A stretch of DNA of 64,000 bases from NCBI RefSeq assembly GCF_900631955.1, contig NZ_UZWD01000030.1, positions 1 through 64,000 of the forward strand. The letters are read 5' to 3'. Shown here in pieces: positions 2,793 through 63,339 of this stretch (positions within the stretch are counted from its first letter, which is position 1; each line of letters opens with the position of its first letter). The translations under genes were made by a program, and so were the position numbers. The DNA is from Devosia equisanguinis. GTDB taxonomy: Bacteria > Pseudomonadota > Alphaproteobacteria > Rhizobiales > Devosiaceae. The notes beneath the pieces were generated by a model that saw nothing but the letters and a program-made list of their open reading frames with translations, had not been told where the DNA came from and did not search any database.

Positions 2793-3359
2793 TCACGCCG
2801 GCTTGTTCGGGCGCTTGCGCCCCAGTCCGACAAGATCACCCAGAAGCAGAATGACCCCCAGCGTGATCGCCACATCCGCCAGATTGAAGATATAGAACGA
2901 CCAGCTTCCCCAATAAAAGTGAAAGAAGTCGGCAACGGCGCCATAAAGCAGGCGATCCAGCGCATTGGAAAGCGCGCCGCCAATGCAGAGCGCCAGGCCC
3001 ATGCGCACCAGCCGCGCATCGCTGCGCCACCACCAGACCGACAGCGCCGCTATGGCCACCAGCATGATGACCCCAAGCGCCCAGACCGGCAGACCATCGA
3101 GCAGGCCATAGGAAATGCCGGTGTTCCACACCAGAACATAGTCGAAGAAGGGCGTCACCGGCAGCACCTCGCCGCCACGCCAGCCGGTGAGGACAAGCGG
3201 ATGATAGGCCGAAAACACCTCCACGCACGCCGCCTGGCCGATGGCATAACACTCAGCGGCAATGTGAAAGCCCTTCTGCGCCCGGTCGATGCCGAAGGCC
3301 AGAATGGCCAGCATGAGGGAGGCGAGAATGGTGGGGGTGCGGGGGGGATGGGTGTTCAT
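2793..3359 (-). CDS. lspA: Lipoprotein signal peptidase (signal peptidase II)
   Basis: 188 aa, four predicted transmembrane segments. It carries the conserved LspA signatures: WNTGISYGLL (the N-G-SxG region), NALDRLLYG with the first catalytic Asp, and FNLADVAI with the second. Both Asp residues of this membrane aspartyl protease are present. It cleaves the signal peptide of diacylglyceryl-modified prolipoproteins at the inner membrane. It lies downstream of ileS in the same orientation, the widely conserved ileS-lspA order, but here a 167-bp repeat-filled gap separates them. Confidence 0.95.
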   Translation of the reverse strand: MNTHPPRTPTILASLMLAILAFGIDRAQKGFHIAAECYAIGQAACVEVFSAYHPLVLTGWRGGEVLPVTPFFDYVLVWNTGISYGLLDGLPVWALGVIMLVAIAALSVWWWRSDARLVRMGLALCIGGALSNALDRLLYGAVADFFHFYWGSWSFYIFNLADVAITLGVILLLGDLVGLGRKRPNKPA

Positions 3360-3375
3360 GGCCTACTCCATCTTT

Positions 3376-3515
3376 CCTTCTCCCCTTGTGGGAGAAGGTG
3401 GCGCGAAGCGCCGGATGAGGGGTTTGGGATGGTTCAGCGCCATTCGAGCTGCGCTCGAATACCCCTCACCCGCCCTTCGGGCACCCTCTCCTACAGGGGG
3501 AGAGGGGAAGGAGCC
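3376..3515. repeat. Composite palindromic repeat (RIME-like), ileS-lspA gap
   Basis: Three hairpins in a row: CCTTCTCCCC/GGAGAAGG followed by GGCGCGAAGCGCC (unit B, 3376-3424); ATTCGAGC/GCTCGAAT (3442-3461); and CCCTCACCC with CCCTTCGGG and CCTCTCC/GGGGAGAGG (unit A, 3462-3507). The order is B-spacer-A. The same units occur in the order A-spacer-B inside ileS at 5057-5200. No ORF is supported here. The pattern resembles the RIME/ABC-type intergenic mosaics of Rhizobiales. Confidence 0.8.
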
Positions 3516-3526
3516 GATAGTCTGGA

Positions 3527-6500
3527 CTACAACCCCGCAGCCACCCGCTCACGCAATGCCTGGGCGTCGCGGGGGGAGACGTCCGGATAGTCGGGGTCGG
3601 ACCCGACCTCGGGCAGCACCTTCCACGAGCGGGCGCAGCGCTGGCCCTGGGCCAAAGCCGGCACCACGGAGACGCCGGGCACGTCTTCGAGGCGGAAGGC
3701 CTCGGCCGGGCCTTCGTTCTGCTTGATCGCGACCGCCGAGGTGATGGCGATCTCGGCCAGATCCTGGCCTTCCAGCGCCACGATGTAACGGGCGTCGGCG
3801 ACAAAAACCTGGGGTGCGGCCTCAAGCGAAGAGCCGATACGCTTTTCGCGGCGCTCGATCTCCAGCGCACCGGTGACCACACGACGGACGGCGCGGATCA
3901 GCTGCCACTTGGCGGCCAGTTCATCATCGATCCAGTCGGCGGGAATGTCCGGGAACTGGCGCAGATGCACAGATTCACCCTCGCCCGGATGGCGTTCCAG
4001 CCAGCACTCTTCCATGGTGAATACCAGGATGGGCGCGAGCCAGGCGGTGAGCGCGTTGAACAGGTGATCGAGCACGGTCAGCGCCGAGCGGCGCTTGATC
4101 GAGGAGATCGGGTCGCAATAGAGCGTGTCCTTGCGGATGTCGAAATAGAATGCCGACAGCTCGATGTTCATGAAGTTCGACAGCATGGTGACGACCTTGC
4201 GGTAGTCATATTCGGCGAAGGCAGCGCGCACGCCGGCATCGAGCTGGGCCAGCCGATGCAGCATCAGCCGCTCGAGTTCGGGCATGTCGCGCGGGTCGAC
4301 CACGTCTTCGGGCTTGAAATGGGCCAGGTTGCCGAGCAGCCAGCGCATGGTATTGCGCAACTTGCGATAGCTGTCGACCGTGGTCTGGATGATTTCCTTG
4401 CCCAGGCGCAGATCCTCGGAATAGTCGGAGGAGGCGACCCAGAGGCGCAGGATATCGGCGCCGAACTGCTTGATGATGTCCTGCGGGGCAACGGTATTGC
4501 CCAGCGACTTGCTCATTTTGCGGCCCTCGCCATCCATGGTGAAGCCATGGGTGAGGACGCTGTCATAGGGCGCATAGCCATTGGTGGCGCAGGATTCGAG
4601 CAGCGAGGAGTGGAACCAGCCGCGATGCTGGTCGCTGCCTTCGAGATACATCGAGGCCGGGAATTTCAGGTGGGGCCACTTCTGCTTGTTGCGCAGCACG
4701 AAGGAATGGGTCGAGCCGGAATCGAACCAGACGTCGAGTACGTCGCGGACCATTTCGTAGTCTGCGGCATTGAACTCCGCGCCAAGGTAGCGCTCGGCGG
4801 CACCGGGCTTATACCAGGCGTCGGCGCCCTCTTCCTCGAAGGACTGGGCGATGCGGTGATTGACCGCTTCGTCGCGCAGGATTTCGCCGGTCTGCTTGTG
4901 CACAAAGACCGTGATCGGCACGCCCCAGGCGCGCTGGCGGGAGAGGACCCAATCGGGACGATCGGCGATCATGGCGCGCAGGCGGTTTTGGCCGGCGGCG
5001 GGGTAGAAGCGGGTCTTGTCGATGGCGGCAAGGGCGCGGGTGCGCAGGGTGTCGGGAAAAGCCCCCTCACCCGTCTCGGCCTTCGGCCGATCCACCCTCT
5101 CCCCGAGAGGGAGAGGAATAGGGGCTTCGGCGCGCGCGGAACTATTCTTCTCCCCCTCGGGGAGAAGGTGGCCCGCAGGGCCGGATGAGGGGGTGGCTGC
5201 AATCGGCTTGTCCATATAGACGAACCATTGCGGCGTGTTGCGGTAGATCACCGGCTTCTTGGAGCGCCAAGAATGGGGGTATTGGTGCTTTACGCGGCCA
5301 CGGGCGATGATGTTGCCGTGCTCGGCCAGCGCGGCGATGACGCGGTTATTGGCGTCGCCCTTCTTGCCATTGTCGTCGATAACGCGGGCGCCCTCGAAGC
5401 CGGGGGCGTCCTTGGTATAGAAGCCATCGTCGCCCACGACATAGGGGATGGCGGGGTCGATGCCGCGATCCTGCAAGGCGCGGGTGGAATCCATCCAGAT
5501 GCCGAAGTCGTCGAGACCATGGCCCGGCGCGGTGTGCACGAAGCCGGTGCCGGCGTCGTCGGTGACGTGTTCGCCATCGAGGAGCGGGACATCGAAGGTG
5601 TAGCCGCCGCCGAAGCCGCGGAGGGGGTGGGCTGCGGTGATACCGGCAAGTTCAATAGCAGAAACGGCGGCGCGCTTTTTGAAGCCGGTTACCTTGGCCT
5701 TTGCAAAGGTCTCGGCGGCAAGCTTGTCTGCAAGGATGTACTTTTCGCCGACCTTAGCCCAGTTCTCGGCCGGCGCTTCGGTCACTTCATAAAGGCCGTA
5801 TTCGACCTTGGAGGAGAAAGAGATGGCGCGGTTGGCCGGGATCGTCCACGGGGTGGTGGTCCAGATTACTACAGAGGCGCCCTCCAACTGTGGCTGATAG
5901 CCTTCGCCGTGATATCCAGCAGCAGCGCGATCCAGATCGTTCTTAACAACCGGGAACTTCACCCAAATCGTGTCGCTCTCATAGTCGGCATATTCGATTT
6001 CGGCTTCGGCGAGGGCGGTGCGTTCCACGACGGACCACATGACGGGCTTGGAACCGCGATAGAGCTGGCCGGTCATCGAGACCTTCATCAGCTCGCGGGC
6101 GATCTGGGCTTCGGCGTCGAAGCTCATGGTCAAATAGGGATTATCCCACTCGCCCAGGATGCCGAGACGCTTGAATTCCTCGCGCTGGATATCGACCCAT
6201 TGCTCGGCGAAGGACCGGCATTCCTGGCGGAATTCGACCACCGGAACCTCGTTCTTGTCCTTGCCCTTGGCGCGGTACTGCTCTTCGATCTTCCATTCGA
6301 TGGGCAGGCCATGACAATCCCAGCCCGGCACATAGGCCGAGTTGTAGCCGGCCATCTGCTTGGACCGGGAGATCATGTCCTTGAGCGTCTTGTTCAGGGC
6401 ATGACCGATATGGATGTTGCCATTGGCATAGGGCGGGCCGTCATGCAGGGTGAAGAGCGGCCGATCCTTGGCCTGCTCGCGCTGCAGGGCGTAAATGTCC

Positions 6501-6631
6501 ATGTCTTCCCAACGCTTGAGCCAGCCCGGCTCGCGGTCGGGGAGACCAGCGCGCATCGGGAAATTGGTTTCCGGCAGGAAAAGCGTGGCCGAATAGTCTT
6601 TTTCGGTCGCCTCGGGAGCGGTGTCGTTCAT
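3527..6631 (-). CDS. ileS: Isoleucyl-tRNA synthetase with an in-frame repeat-derived insertion
   Basis: 1034 aa class I synthetase that charges tRNA-Ile. The HIGH motif is at residues 74-77 (IHIGH) and KMSKS at 705-709. The editing (CP1) domain and the anticodon-binding domain follow the usual order. Residues about 478-525 (from after MDKPIA to before [17 protein letters not shown]) have no place in the family: they translate a composite palindromic repeat ([14 protein letters not shown] and [13 protein letters not shown]) also found between genes in this window. The C-terminal zinc motif is degenerate ([13 protein letters not shown], with Cys replaced by Ser), as I recall for many alphaproteobacterial enzymes. 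As the only ileS here and open over the full length, it is presumably functional with the insert tolerated in a surface loop. Confidence 0.97.
5057..5200. repeat. Palindromic repeat pair inserted inside ileS coding sequence
   Basis: Unit A (CCCTCACCC, CGGCCTTCGGCCG, CCTCTCCCC/GAGAGGGAGAGG, about 5063-5118), a 28-nt spacer and unit B (CTTCTCCCC/GGGGAGAAG, GGCCCGCAGGGCC, GGATGAGGGGG, about 5147-5192). The outer ends form an imperfect inverted repeat (AGCC..CCCTCA versus TGAGGGGGTGGCT). The insertion keeps the ileS frame and adds about 48 codons. Confidence 0.85.
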
Positions 6632-6723
6632 GGATCGGCAATCAGGTTTGGAAGAAGTGCGCGCCTTTTAGCAAGGCAAGGCGGCCGGGGCAAAGGATGA
6701 TTTTGGGTAGAAAGCCTGGTAAC

Positions 6724-6836
6724 TTCCCCTCCCCTCCTCCCCCTGAAGAAGGGGAGGCGCCTATCGAGCGCGGCCCGTATCTTGACGAAAGCACCGATGC
6801 CACTCCTCCCCCTTCTTTCGGGGGAGGCTGGGTGGC
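6724..6836. repeat. Pair of C/G-rich hairpins between ribF and ileS
   Basis: Two hairpins, CCTCCCCCTGAAGAAGGGGAGG near 6735-6757 and CCTCCCCCTTCTTTCGGGGG near 6804-6825, separated by about 45 bp. They fill most of the 207-bp gap upstream of ileS and belong to the CCTCCCC/GGGGAGG repeat family seen near 7.85, 9.0, 22.95, 24.2, 49.6 and 53.0 kb. Confidence 0.65.
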
Positions 6837-6838
6837 GC

Positions 6839-7810
6839 TCAGCCGAAGAAACCGAGTTTGTGGTCTAGGGCGCTCAGCGGGGCGGCGGTGGCGATCAGGG
6901 TGCGGGCTTTTTTGGAGTCGCGATCCATGGCGGCGATGAGTTCGTCGAGGCCGGAGAACACTTCCTGGCCGCGGATATGGGCGATGAGGGCGACCGAGAT
7001 GGACTGGTCGTAAATGTCCTCATCGAAATCGAAGAGGTGGGTCTCGAAGGGCGGGCGGTGGTTGTTGAACATCGGCTTGCCATAGGCGGCAACGCCGTCG
7101 AGCAGGCGGTTGCCGAGGCGGGCGCGCACGGCATAGACGCCCTGGGCCAGCTGGAACCCGGTGGGCGTGGTGGTGTTGGCGGTGGGGTAGCCCAGTTCGC
7201 GGCCGCGCTGGTCGCCCTTGACCACGCAGCCTTCGAAAAACCAGTGATAGCCGAGCAGGCGATTGGCGGCGACCACGGCGCCTTCGGACAAGGCGGCGCG
7301 AATGCGCGAGGAGGAGATGACCTCGTCGCCCTCGTCCATGAGATCGAGCGTTTCCACCGCGAAACCCAGACGCTCGCCGGCGGCCTTGAGGAAAAGCGGG
7401 GTGCCGCGACGCTGGCGGCCGAAATGGAAATCGGCGCCGGTGATGACGCCGCGGGCGTCCAGGGCATCGACGATGACCTTTTCGACGAAATCCTCGGCCT
7501 CGATCTGCGAGAACGGCTGGTCAAAAGGCAGAATGACGATGCCATCAAGCCCCATCGCTTCGGCCAGACGGGCCTTGGTGTCGCCCTGGGTCAGGCGGAA
7601 CATGAAGGGCGCGGGCGCGAAGACATCGCGCGGGTGCGGCTCGAAGGTGAGCATGAGCGCCGGGGCTCCGGCGGCGCGAGCCCGCTGCAACAGCGCGGCG
7701 ATGATGGTCTGGTGACCGCGATGCAGGCCATCGAAATTGCCGATGGCGACATAGGCGCCACGCAGGCTTTCGGGCAGATCGGTGAGACTGGAGAGGCGAA
7801 TGAAGGTCAC
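6839..7810 (-). CDS. ribF: Bifunctional riboflavin kinase / FAD synthetase
   Basis: 323 aa. The N-terminal FAD synthetase (nucleotidyltransferase) domain has GNFDGLHRGHQ (about residues 23-33), and the C-terminal riboflavin kinase domain has LGYPTANT and the expected following segments. The enzyme phosphorylates riboflavin to FMN and adenylates FMN to FAD. Length matches the family (about 310-330 aa). The start is a GTG at 7810 with no strong ribosome binding site; the frame is open further upstream but has no better start. It lies between the HAD phosphatase gene and ileS, all on the minus strand, an order common in Hyphomicrobiales. Confidence 0.95.
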   Translation of the reverse strand: MTFIRLSSLTDLPESLRGAYVAIGNFDGLHRGHQTIIAALLQRARAAGAPALMLTFEPHPRDVFAPAPFMFRLTQGDTKARLAEAMGLDGIVILPFDQPFSQIEAEDFVEKVIVDALDARGVITGADFHFGRQRRGTPLFLKAAGERLGFAVETLDLMDEGDEVISSSRIRAALSEGAVVAANRLLGYHWFFEGCVVKGDQRGRELGYPTANTTTPTGFQLAQGVYAVRARLGNRLLDGVAAYGKPMFNNHRPPFETHLFDFDEDIYDQSISVALIAHIRGQEVFSGLDELIAAMDRDSKKARTLIATAAPLSALDHKLGFFG

Positions 7811-8794: not shown

Positions 8795-9121
8795 GGCCAG
8801 GCTCCGCAACACAAACACTGCCCGCCCTATGAGCCTCTTTTGCCGGGGGGATCAAGCAAAACCTTGTTCCGCCGCCGAGGCAGGGCGGAACGGTGGTTGA
8901 GCGAGGCCTATGGGGTATGGAGGCACTTTCGCCCCCCTCGCCCGTTGGGGCACCGGTATCGCATATAGGTTTGAGCGTGCTGCACACCCCCTCCCAGCCT
9001 CCCCCGTCAAGGGGGAGGAGCCGCATCGAGTGACTGGTGAGATATTGCCAAAAGCGCTGCCCGAACCTCTCTAGGGCTAGGGAAGCGAAAGGGCGCTGAG
9101 TCCGTATCGGTTTGAAGTGAT
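8795..9121. other. Gene-free intergenic region with repeat
   Basis: 327 bp between the HAD gene start and the EAL gene stop. It contains one CCTCCCC-family palindrome (about 8984-9020, CCTCCCCCGTCAAGGGGGAGG) and a tail GGTTTGAAGTGATCTAA at 9109-9125. A near copy of that tail, AGTTTGAAATGATCTAA, ends the repeat near 49650, so the repeat unit extends beyond the hairpin and seems to supply the stop codon of the EAL gene. I see no ORF or RNA gene. Confidence 0.5.
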
Positions 9122-15617: not shown

Positions 15618-15645
15618 ACGTCTTGGCACCCCAGTCACCGCCGCG

Positions 15646-15666
15646 CCCTCGGGTCGAGCCCGAGGG
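15646..15666. repeat. CCCTCGGG palindrome (family C)
   Basis: CCCTCGGG-N5-CCCGAGGG. The same palindrome, with GTGACG nearby, recurs at 33631-33651, 33681-33701, 63187-63207 and 63253-63273. It lies in the convergent gap between the DUF4260 gene and the DUF427 gene and may act as a bidirectional terminator. Confidence 0.7.
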
Positions 15667-15741
15667 TGACGAGCGGTGGTTGGGTAGAGGCCGGTGGTTG
15701 GGAGGGCCGTGGGGTCGTCGGCCCTAACAGGGAAAAGCCGG

Positions 15742-24128: not shown

Positions 24129-24167
24129 TATAGCCCTGCCTCGCAGTCACGCTGCGCCACCGGCGGG

Positions 24168-24294
24168 TCCATCGCCTCCCTCCCCCTTGAGGAGAGGGAT
24201 TGAGAGTGGGGGTCCGTCAGTGACCCAAAAAACCACCCCCCACCCCGGCCCTCCCCCTCAAGGGGGGAGGGAGCGCAGGGGCAAAGGCGATGGA
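24168..24294. repeat. Palindromic element with 10-bp terminal inverted repeats
   Basis: Ends TCCATCGCCT (24168-24177) and AGGCGATGGA (24285-24294) are perfect inverted repeats. Inside, CCTCCCTCCCCC/AGGGGGGAGGG arms enclose a core with GTGGGGGTCCG and ACCCCCCACCCC. The layout is MITE-like and shares its core words with the copies at 49.5 and 53.0 kb. It lies in the 184-bp gap between hisS and hisZ. Confidence 0.6.
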
Positions 24295-33574: not shown

Positions 33575-33630
33575 GGCACAGGTCGAGTGGGCCGAGGCAT
33601 TTTGCTGACTTGCCCACTCACCGCACGTCA

Positions 33631-33701
33631 CCCTCGGGCTTGACCCGAGGGCACTTGCCGAACCGACCCTGTGACCAGAACCCTCGGGTCGAGCCCGAGG
33701 G
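33631..33701. repeat. Two CCCTCGGG palindromes in the iron operon gap
   Basis: Copies at 33631-33651 (CCCTCGGGCTTGACCCGAGGG-type) and 33681-33701 (CCCTCGGGTCGAGCCCGAGG). They sit between substrate-binding and permease genes, whose gap is 154 bp, and could attenuate transcription into the permease. Confidence 0.7.
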
Positions 33702-33728
33702 TGACGATCTGTGAATGTTGTTGGGCAG

Positions 33729-49435: not shown

Positions 49436-49534
49436 CGTTCACGTTCTGGTTGATGCAGCTCCATCCCCCTGCCCTTGCGGGCTCTGAACTGTTCAGAAGG
49501 GTACATCTGTCCAGCGGAGAGATTTTAAGTGAAG

Positions 49535-49616
49535 AGGCCGGGGTGGGGGTGGTCCGGTGACCCGCTGATGGACCCCCTCCCTCAATCCCTCCCCTCAAGG
49601 GGGAGGGAGGCGAAAG
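49535..49616. repeat. Composite CCTCCC/GGGAGG repeat
   Basis: GGTGGGGGTGG then ACCCCCTCCCTC and CCTCCCCTCAAGGGGGAGG. Strongly similar to 53025-53070 (ACCCCCTCCCTCA core). The tail AGTTTGAAATGATCTAA at 49636-49652 also occurs at 9109-9125. Confidence 0.65.
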
Positions 49617-52939: not shown

Positions 52940-53075
52940 ATGCCCGCCCTCCCCCTTGAGGGGAGGGTAGCGAACCTAGCCGCCAGGCTTAGCGAAGCTG
53001 CGGAGGGGGTGCTCCTGTGATTCACAGAACGACCCCCTCCCTCATTCCCTCCCCTCAAGGGGGAGGGAGGCGATA
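52940..53075. repeat. Paired CCTCCCC repeats within the ATP-grasp operon
   Basis: First hairpin CCTCCCCCTTGAGGGGAGGG (52948-52967), then GGAGGGGGTGCTC, and last ACCCCCTCCCTCA with CCCCTCAAGGGGGAGGG (53034-53070). The copy separates ATP-grasp and alpha-E genes. Related to 49535-49616. Confidence 0.7.
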
Positions 53076-53117
53076 GAGCCGACACCGGCGAGTGAGGCAA
53101 AAGCTGAAAAACCATCA

Positions 53118-63186: not shown

Positions 63187-63273
63187 CCCTCGGGCTTGAC
63201 CCGGGGGCCGGTTGGTGAGGCACAGGCGCTGTAAACCGCAAGCGGCCGATGGCCCTCGGGTCAAGCCCGAGGG
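63187..63273. repeat. Two CCCTCGGG palindromes (family C)
   Basis: 63187-63207 and 63253-63273, in the convergent 176-bp gap between the GH13 gene and the AEC transporter gene. Likely bidirectional terminators. Confidence 0.7.
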
Positions 63274-63339
63274 CGGCGTTGTGGGTGGGGAAAATCGGAG
63301 GTCACCAAGCAGAAGATGTTTGACGTCCTGAGCTTCGGC

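Follow-up and report, generated by a model that had tools for sequence, protein, structure and literature searches.

How does an essential aminoacyl-tRNA synthetase come to carry, within its reading frame, a repeat of a kind that lies mostly between genes, and does its presence record one old event or many? The question is raised by the isoleucyl-tRNA synthetase gene, ileS, in a 64,000-nucleotide stretch at the start of contig NZ_UZWD01000030.1 of Devosia equisanguinis (the window, to which all coordinates refer). An initial annotation made from the letters of the window had described a palindromic repeat pair translated in frame inside IleS, and the description holds: a frame of 1034 residues runs without an internal stop through two units that match R1, a covariance model of 23 units from D. 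equisanguinis and related genomes whose rows include both window ileS units as well as other units of the window. A multicopy palindromic element is translated within an essential isoleucyl-tRNA synthetase. The identity of the gene rests on Pfam PF00133 and Anticodon_1 and on solved IleRS relatives. The features of the locus are as follows.

2793 to 3359, reverse strand: lspA (signal peptidase II; PF01252, 99.5 bits), downstream neighbour of ileS
3374 to 3421, reverse strand: REP-like unit in the ileS-lspA gap (R1, 70.7 bits)
3463 to 3508, forward strand: REP-like unit in the same gap, forming a head-to-head dimer with the unit at 3374 to 3421 (R1, 59.2 bits)
3527 to 6631, reverse strand: ileS, 1034 amino acids, containing the translated palindromic insert
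5051 to 5209, reverse strand: expanded IleS loop, K475 to D527, 53 codons between MD (473-474) and TLR (528-530)
5062 to 5193, unstranded: tail-to-tail REP-like dimer inside ileS, recognised by its inverted arms, its fold and its R1 matches
5064 to 5119, forward strand: second unit in ileS, in opposite orientation (R1, 61.7 bits; about 20 residues on the ileS strand)
5144 to 5191, reverse strand: first unit in the reading direction of ileS, with a CCCTCATCCG head and two hairpins (R1, 71.8 bits; read as 16 residues)
6839 to 7810, reverse strand: ribF (FAD synthetase / riboflavin kinase; PF06574 and PF01687), upstream neighbour of ileS

The loop from K475 to D527 is 53 residues long; in L019, L021 and L023, the nearest relatives, it has 9. 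The insert had been put at about 48 residues; the expanded loop is there, and the net gain over those relatives is slightly smaller, at 44 residues. The corresponding 132 nucleotides bear out the further statement that its length is a multiple of three. The same units were said to fill, in the opposite order, the gap between ileS and lspA (3360-3526) about 1.6 kb away, where we indeed find them head-to-head. On the other side of ileS, the ribF-ileS gap has an imperfect inverted repeat at 6728-6835, which makes ileS flanked by palindromes on both sides; genome G053 likewise has REP units to either side of its ileS.

The dimer inside ileS is built of two nested pairs of inverted arms, the outer 19 nt long and 79% complementary (5062-5080 and 5175-5193), the inner 30 nt long and 90% complementary (5092-5121 and 5142-5171). 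Folded on the ileS strand, the insert reaches -98.2 kcal/mol against a mean of -68.7 for shuffled sequences (z -6.3; 0 of 200 shuffles as good). Each unit is C-rich and forms two hairpins, of about 5 bp and then 8 bp, and the CCCTCAYCCG heads point outward in the ileS dimer. The two helices of the R1 alignment are paired in 94.6% of cells, compared with 86.4% after shuffling (none of 500 shuffles reaches this); four pairs show changes on both sides, a level matched by 15 of 500 shuffles, and extra pair types are fewer than in shuffles, 7 against 9.7. The D. equisanguinis genome has at least 75 R1 hits at E<=0.01, many of them paired, among the 150 of 3745 first-look candidates that were scored. 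With a palindromic unit, a consensus, paired stems, and many mostly intergenic copies in inverted dimers, the family is REP in the broad sense of the term. The GTAG/CGTC superfamilies are marked by a terminal GTAG or CGTC tag, TGTC or CCTC in other cases, beside a single stem; the units here have CCTC within their CCCTCAYCCG start, but two hairpins. No Rfam family matched within 3000-7000 of the window up to E 0.5, and the whole window at gathering scores gave tRNA only.

REPINs and BIMEs are inverted dimers of short palindromes that are spread over a genome and mobilised by RAYT transposases. The Devosia dimers are like them in being inverted and distributed genome-wide, and unlike them in that the D. 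equisanguinis genome (a draft of 79 contigs, 99% complete) has no match to Y1_Tnp (PF01797), in a search whose control was positive in 5 of 14 genomes; the cognate transposase that marks a RAYT-mobilised REPIN was not found in this genome. The insert matches several other dimers over nearly their whole length, and the moving unit is therefore probably the dimer. Among 41 own-genome stretches compared, the closest other full dimer is L109 on contig C62, with 87% identity over 135 nt. Origin as a copy of the neighbouring ileS-lspA dimer is unsupported, the closest sequences being tail-to-tail dimers on other contigs. Nor is a shared CCTTG-like flank plainly encoded by the element: in the 14 bases ahead of 151 unit heads, little consensus is seen apart from the last three. 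Inspection of the window insert by eye revealed no target duplication.

The window holds other repeats as well. A second palindromic family, ACGTCACCCTCGGGCTTGACCCGAGGG-like and with the look of a CGTC-type REP, is distinct from the ileS insert and occurs at 15645-15684, 33613-33717 and 63253-63285. A third, C/G-rich family, CCCCCTCCCTC..CCCTCAAGGGGGAGG-like, occurs at 8978-9018, 24155-24279, 49524-49616 and 52994-53090, and R1 matches it at 24237-24273 (E 5.8e-6). Direct copies of about 108 nt lie at 311-730, at least four in number, partly overlapping and 62-79% identical to the first.

The IleS loop was read in 73 of 75 Devosia genomes, G059 and G069 having no readable loop. It has 9 residues in fifty-nine and 8 in one, bears REP units in eleven, and is long without a REP signal in two (L016 and L073, which were counted in this last class); the loop unit of L026 is degraded (R1 E 0.25) and was counted as REP by its sequence. 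Named carriers are D. crocina, D. oryzisoli, D. elaeis, D. geojensis, a D. ginsengisoli MAG and Devosia sp. Root635; D. enhydra and MAG 337R, placed in other genera in the grouping used, are carriers also. The inserts in Devosia vary in the type, number and orientation of their units. An alignment of orthologues had been proposed to show whether this strain or a clade has the insert, and neither is the case, the same loop being occupied in scattered lineages. On an IleS tree made without the loop (66 rows, a quick LG+G4 tree with SH-aLRT only), the eleven carriers are scattered, with 10 changes. The short-loop label takes 11 changes, of which starred branches force 7; shuffled labels average 12.1, and 105 of 500 shuffles are as low, so that the label is not clearly more clustered than in shuffles.

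That the insert is an assembly artefact, or an ancestral loop that is no repeat at all, seems extremely improbable. The window assembly is a draft, and repeats are prone to misassembly, but the same first unit stands in the same place in separate assemblies (L012 and L027), one-contig genomes (G031 and G053) have inserts, and the inserts are in frame in every loop read. The ancestral loop was rejected on length: the loop is 8-9 residues long in 60 of the 73 Devosia genomes and 7-9 in 64 of 80 named loci, so that the inserts are derived.

Occupation of the loop does not stop at the genus. In other Devosiaceae genera, REP units are at the loop in 8 of 57 matched genomes, of which 17 were read and 40 were judged from unbroken matches of ordinary length. 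Two of these loci, L150 and L160, have two units each at the loop, and in L150 the two are different units side by side. In the order, 257 genomes outside Devosiaceae were matched, and the 17 whose matches were weak or split were examined further; at least four, from two families, have REP units at the loop, three in G317, two each in G413 and G283, and one in G136. A further genome, G252, has a contig break within a palindromic tract at the loop and was not counted. In the class, 375 genomes were matched and 11 followed up, and at least three of these, from two families outside the order, have palindromic dimers of other kinds in this loop: a CGTC-type repeat in G429, a CCTTCGACA-type repeat in G692 and a GCGCGAGGCACGAGG-type repeat in G428, all recognised by sequence and fold. 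The numbers of carriers in the order and the class are lower bounds and do not give frequencies. Across genus, family and order, occupation of this loop is patchy.

Further palindrome copies of the G429 and G428 loci (L283 and L282) were found within the stretches examined around them. The IleS of G429 has a second copy in its editing domain and that of G428 has one before LYLEGSD, and the IleS of G692 (L285) has a further insert of similar look, RHPGLDPGSR..TPDQVRGDD. Long IleS loops without a REP signal occur in L016, L073, L153, L156, L158 and L175-L177; these could be decayed inserts or lineage-specific loops.

We consider it probable that the IleS loop is permissive, that mobile palindromic repeats land there again and again or pass from one such loop to another, and that readings survive when they are in frame and, mostly, non-basic. 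The carriers may not each stem from an insertion of their own, and the near-identical units within two sets of loci speak against recurrent landing: the first unit is almost identical in L001, L012 and L027, and L009, L011, L013 and L053 have another near-identical unit in common. It is rather unlikely that one or a few old insertions in Devosiaceae were followed by the spread of insert alleles through homologous recombination and by repeated loss. Near-identical inserts in separate clades (L011 with L053; L001 and L012 with L027) fit such a history, as does identity over the 100 nt to the left of the insert, which is 0.90-0.96 in shared-insert pairs against 0.883 (sd 0.028) in cross-clade empty pairs. 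However, identity to the right shows no consistent rise (0.77-0.90 in shared-insert pairs against a background of 0.802), and L011 and L012, which have different inserts, also reach 0.96 on the left. Proline is the second loop residue in 11 of 11 Devosia carriers and in 5 of 60 short loops, and a right flank EG(A/S/V)(L/F)PD is common to several carriers; both favour old insertion. Reverse units from several genera end in the flank (G/D)EG(A/S/V)(L/F), which may point to a common ancestry or a common target. Against a history of old insertion and recombination, the short loops resemble outgroup loops, and a single insertion cannot yield different unit types and orientations, the two units of L150, or the palindromes outside the order. 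Part of the carrier pattern may be loop-allele recombination or old descent, and yet the variety of units, together with the other repeats outside the order, requires several insertions.

A loop that was merely permissive predicts REPs in more loops of other proteins, and few were found, a point that weighs against recurrent landing as stated above. In the D. equisanguinis genome, R1 gave 70 hits outside contig C66; six weak ones were dropped and 64 were grouped into 44 clusters, six of which lie at contig edges, leaving 38 for analysis. The in-gene test, a simple codon score trained on IleS genes, was positive for ileS, its positive control, and negative for the ileS-lspA gap, and none of the 38 own-genome clusters was an open in-frame insertion between two coding-like flanks. 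In G053, a carrier whose genome is one contig, 114 units at E<=1e-5 form 75 clusters; every cluster was analysed, and two are open in frame, those in ileS and in a siroheme synthase gene. The latter is CysG-like (L363 10229-12043), and a REP dimer, about 51 codons long and in frame, lies in its NAD-binding domain. In the two genomes surveyed, ileS is thus the sole interrupted gene found (D. equisanguinis) or one of two (G053).

The units also show a regularity of phase. Units in reverse orientation read GGT/GAT-GAG-GGG, with 23 of 23 TGAGGG motifs in one codon phase, while forward units use more than one (6, 3 and 1 motifs), so that phase alone is no strict rule, a further point against the survival of selected readings. 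Of the alternative phases of reverse units, one reads TGA and the third is usually open, and no loop was seen using the third. The net charge of the frame in use is zero or negative in 25 of 26 REP loops when the first three codons are excluded, the exception being L184 at +2; the +1 frame is open in 20 of the 26 and basic in all 26. Both the phase and the charge counts are taken over related sequences and are not independent events. Either basic loops were purged from a tRNA-binding enzyme, or the phase was set by GAG-GGC microhomology of the short loop.

In its full form the latter proposal is that GAG-GGC, often encoded by the short loop, matches the element's GAGGG end and so draws template switching into a single phase, which we regard as distinctly unlikely. 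The uniform phase of the reverse-unit ends agrees with it, as do seven inserts with exactly six codons from the GAG to the loop end, the same as in the 9-residue loop, and the [CT]GA[AG]GG motif held by 33 of 60 short loops. Full TGAGGG, however, is present in just 4 of the 60, the several phases of forward units and the palindromes outside the order are left unexplained by it, and stop avoidance with selection can set the phase as well.

The charge bias bears equally on whether the insert is kept as helpful, as an acidic flexible linker or as a hairpin in the mRNA by which translation is slowed between the editing half and the catalytic half. Use of a zero or negative frame where a basic one is so often open is in its favour, as are the very stable hairpins, the recurrence at a domain boundary, and the occurrence there of further long loops that lack a REP signal. 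We nevertheless find it very unlikely: the insert is absent from 60 of 73 Devosia genomes, REP loops differ in sequence and range from 20 to 79 residues, and the bias could also stem from the purging of basic loops.

An AlphaFold2 model of IleS from a 45-row alignment has a mean pLDDT of 78 and aligns with the solved bacterial IleRS 1qu2 over 886 residues (Z 33.3, rmsd 4.8). Residues 479-523 lie below pLDDT 50 (about 30) and have no secondary structure, between a strand at 468-472 and a helix at 529-539. In a sequence alignment to solved 8c9e, residue 472 corresponds to 414 and residue 530 to 419, with four residues between the aligned stretches. Modelling had been suggested to show whether the insert forms a surface loop; a disordered loop is what the model gives, and from the model and the 8c9e alignment we infer that it is surface-exposed. 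The Rickettsia palindromic elements (RPEs) are in-frame insertions at exposed places; here there are the open frame and, in the model, a disordered loop that may be exposed.

The likeness to RPEs drawn in the initial annotation is sound: here too a multicopy palindrome is read in frame within an essential synthetase. According to PMC3767692, RPE-4, RPE-6 and RPE-7 are in-frame translated palindromes of 68-192 nt at solvent-exposed places, and RPE-7 (144 nt) is in the Rickettsia isoleucyl-tRNA synthetase, the same enzyme as in Devosia. That paper reports an RPE insert at the same site in every aligned Rickettsia orthologue, whereas in Devosia and its relatives short loops are mixed in with the carriers, and the repeats change from one order to another. 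To call such inserts rarely described outside Rickettsia, on the other hand, was too strong. In PMC3733652, REPs are described inside genes of several species, including tRNA synthetases in X. oryzae, E. litoralis and S. alaskensis. The GTAG/CGTC REPs of that paper resemble the Devosia unit as short multicopy palindromes that are often dimers, mostly intergenic and sometimes translated; the Devosia unit is set apart by its C-richness, two hairpins and CCCTCAYCCG head. PMC3733652 also places a REP at about the same site in recB of X. campestris and X. oryzae, and REPs of other genes of the same functional category at different sites, whereas in Devosia one loop is occupied repeatedly. In the literature searched we found no account of repeated occupation of this IleS loop, with the proviso that the gene list of PMC3733652 may include IleS. 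Intragenic REPs were already known from Rickettsia, Xanthomonas and Sphingomonadales, even in Rickettsia IleS; what is new is that one loop of an essential enzyme is occupied repeatedly.

Recurrent landing, the reading that we favour, would proceed as follows. The insert would be a full copy, of about 132-137 nt, of a multicopy, REP-like, non-autonomous element, a dimer of inverted two-hairpin units, moved by machinery acting in trans or by template switching, with no resident RAYT. It would have landed in the loop between WFVYMD, the strand following the editing domain, and TLRTRAL, the helix that comes next in the catalytic domain. Insertion there would be survivable because the element is poor in stops, the loop tolerates length, and a multiple of three keeps the core enzyme intact. 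Insertion would recur at the loop, along with local exchange, selection would retain only in-frame, mostly non-basic readings, and the peptide would serve as a neutral, disordered surface linker. A bolder version, which we find rather doubtful, would make the loop after the editing domain of bacterial-type IleRS a landing pad on which at least four apparently unrelated kinds of palindrome have converged independently across Alphaproteobacteria, in an acidic frame and perhaps as a tunable linker or translational pause.

For the coding palindromes of Rickettsia, one old insertion and repeated insertion at hotspots have been weighed against each other and the matter left unsettled; the authors of PMC3767692 lean to one old insertion. 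In Devosia and its relatives, carriers, short loops and differing repeats meet at a single loop, where insertion, exchange, loss and fitness cost could be measured, and the IleS loops form a series of linker insertions that nature has made in a tRNA synthetase.
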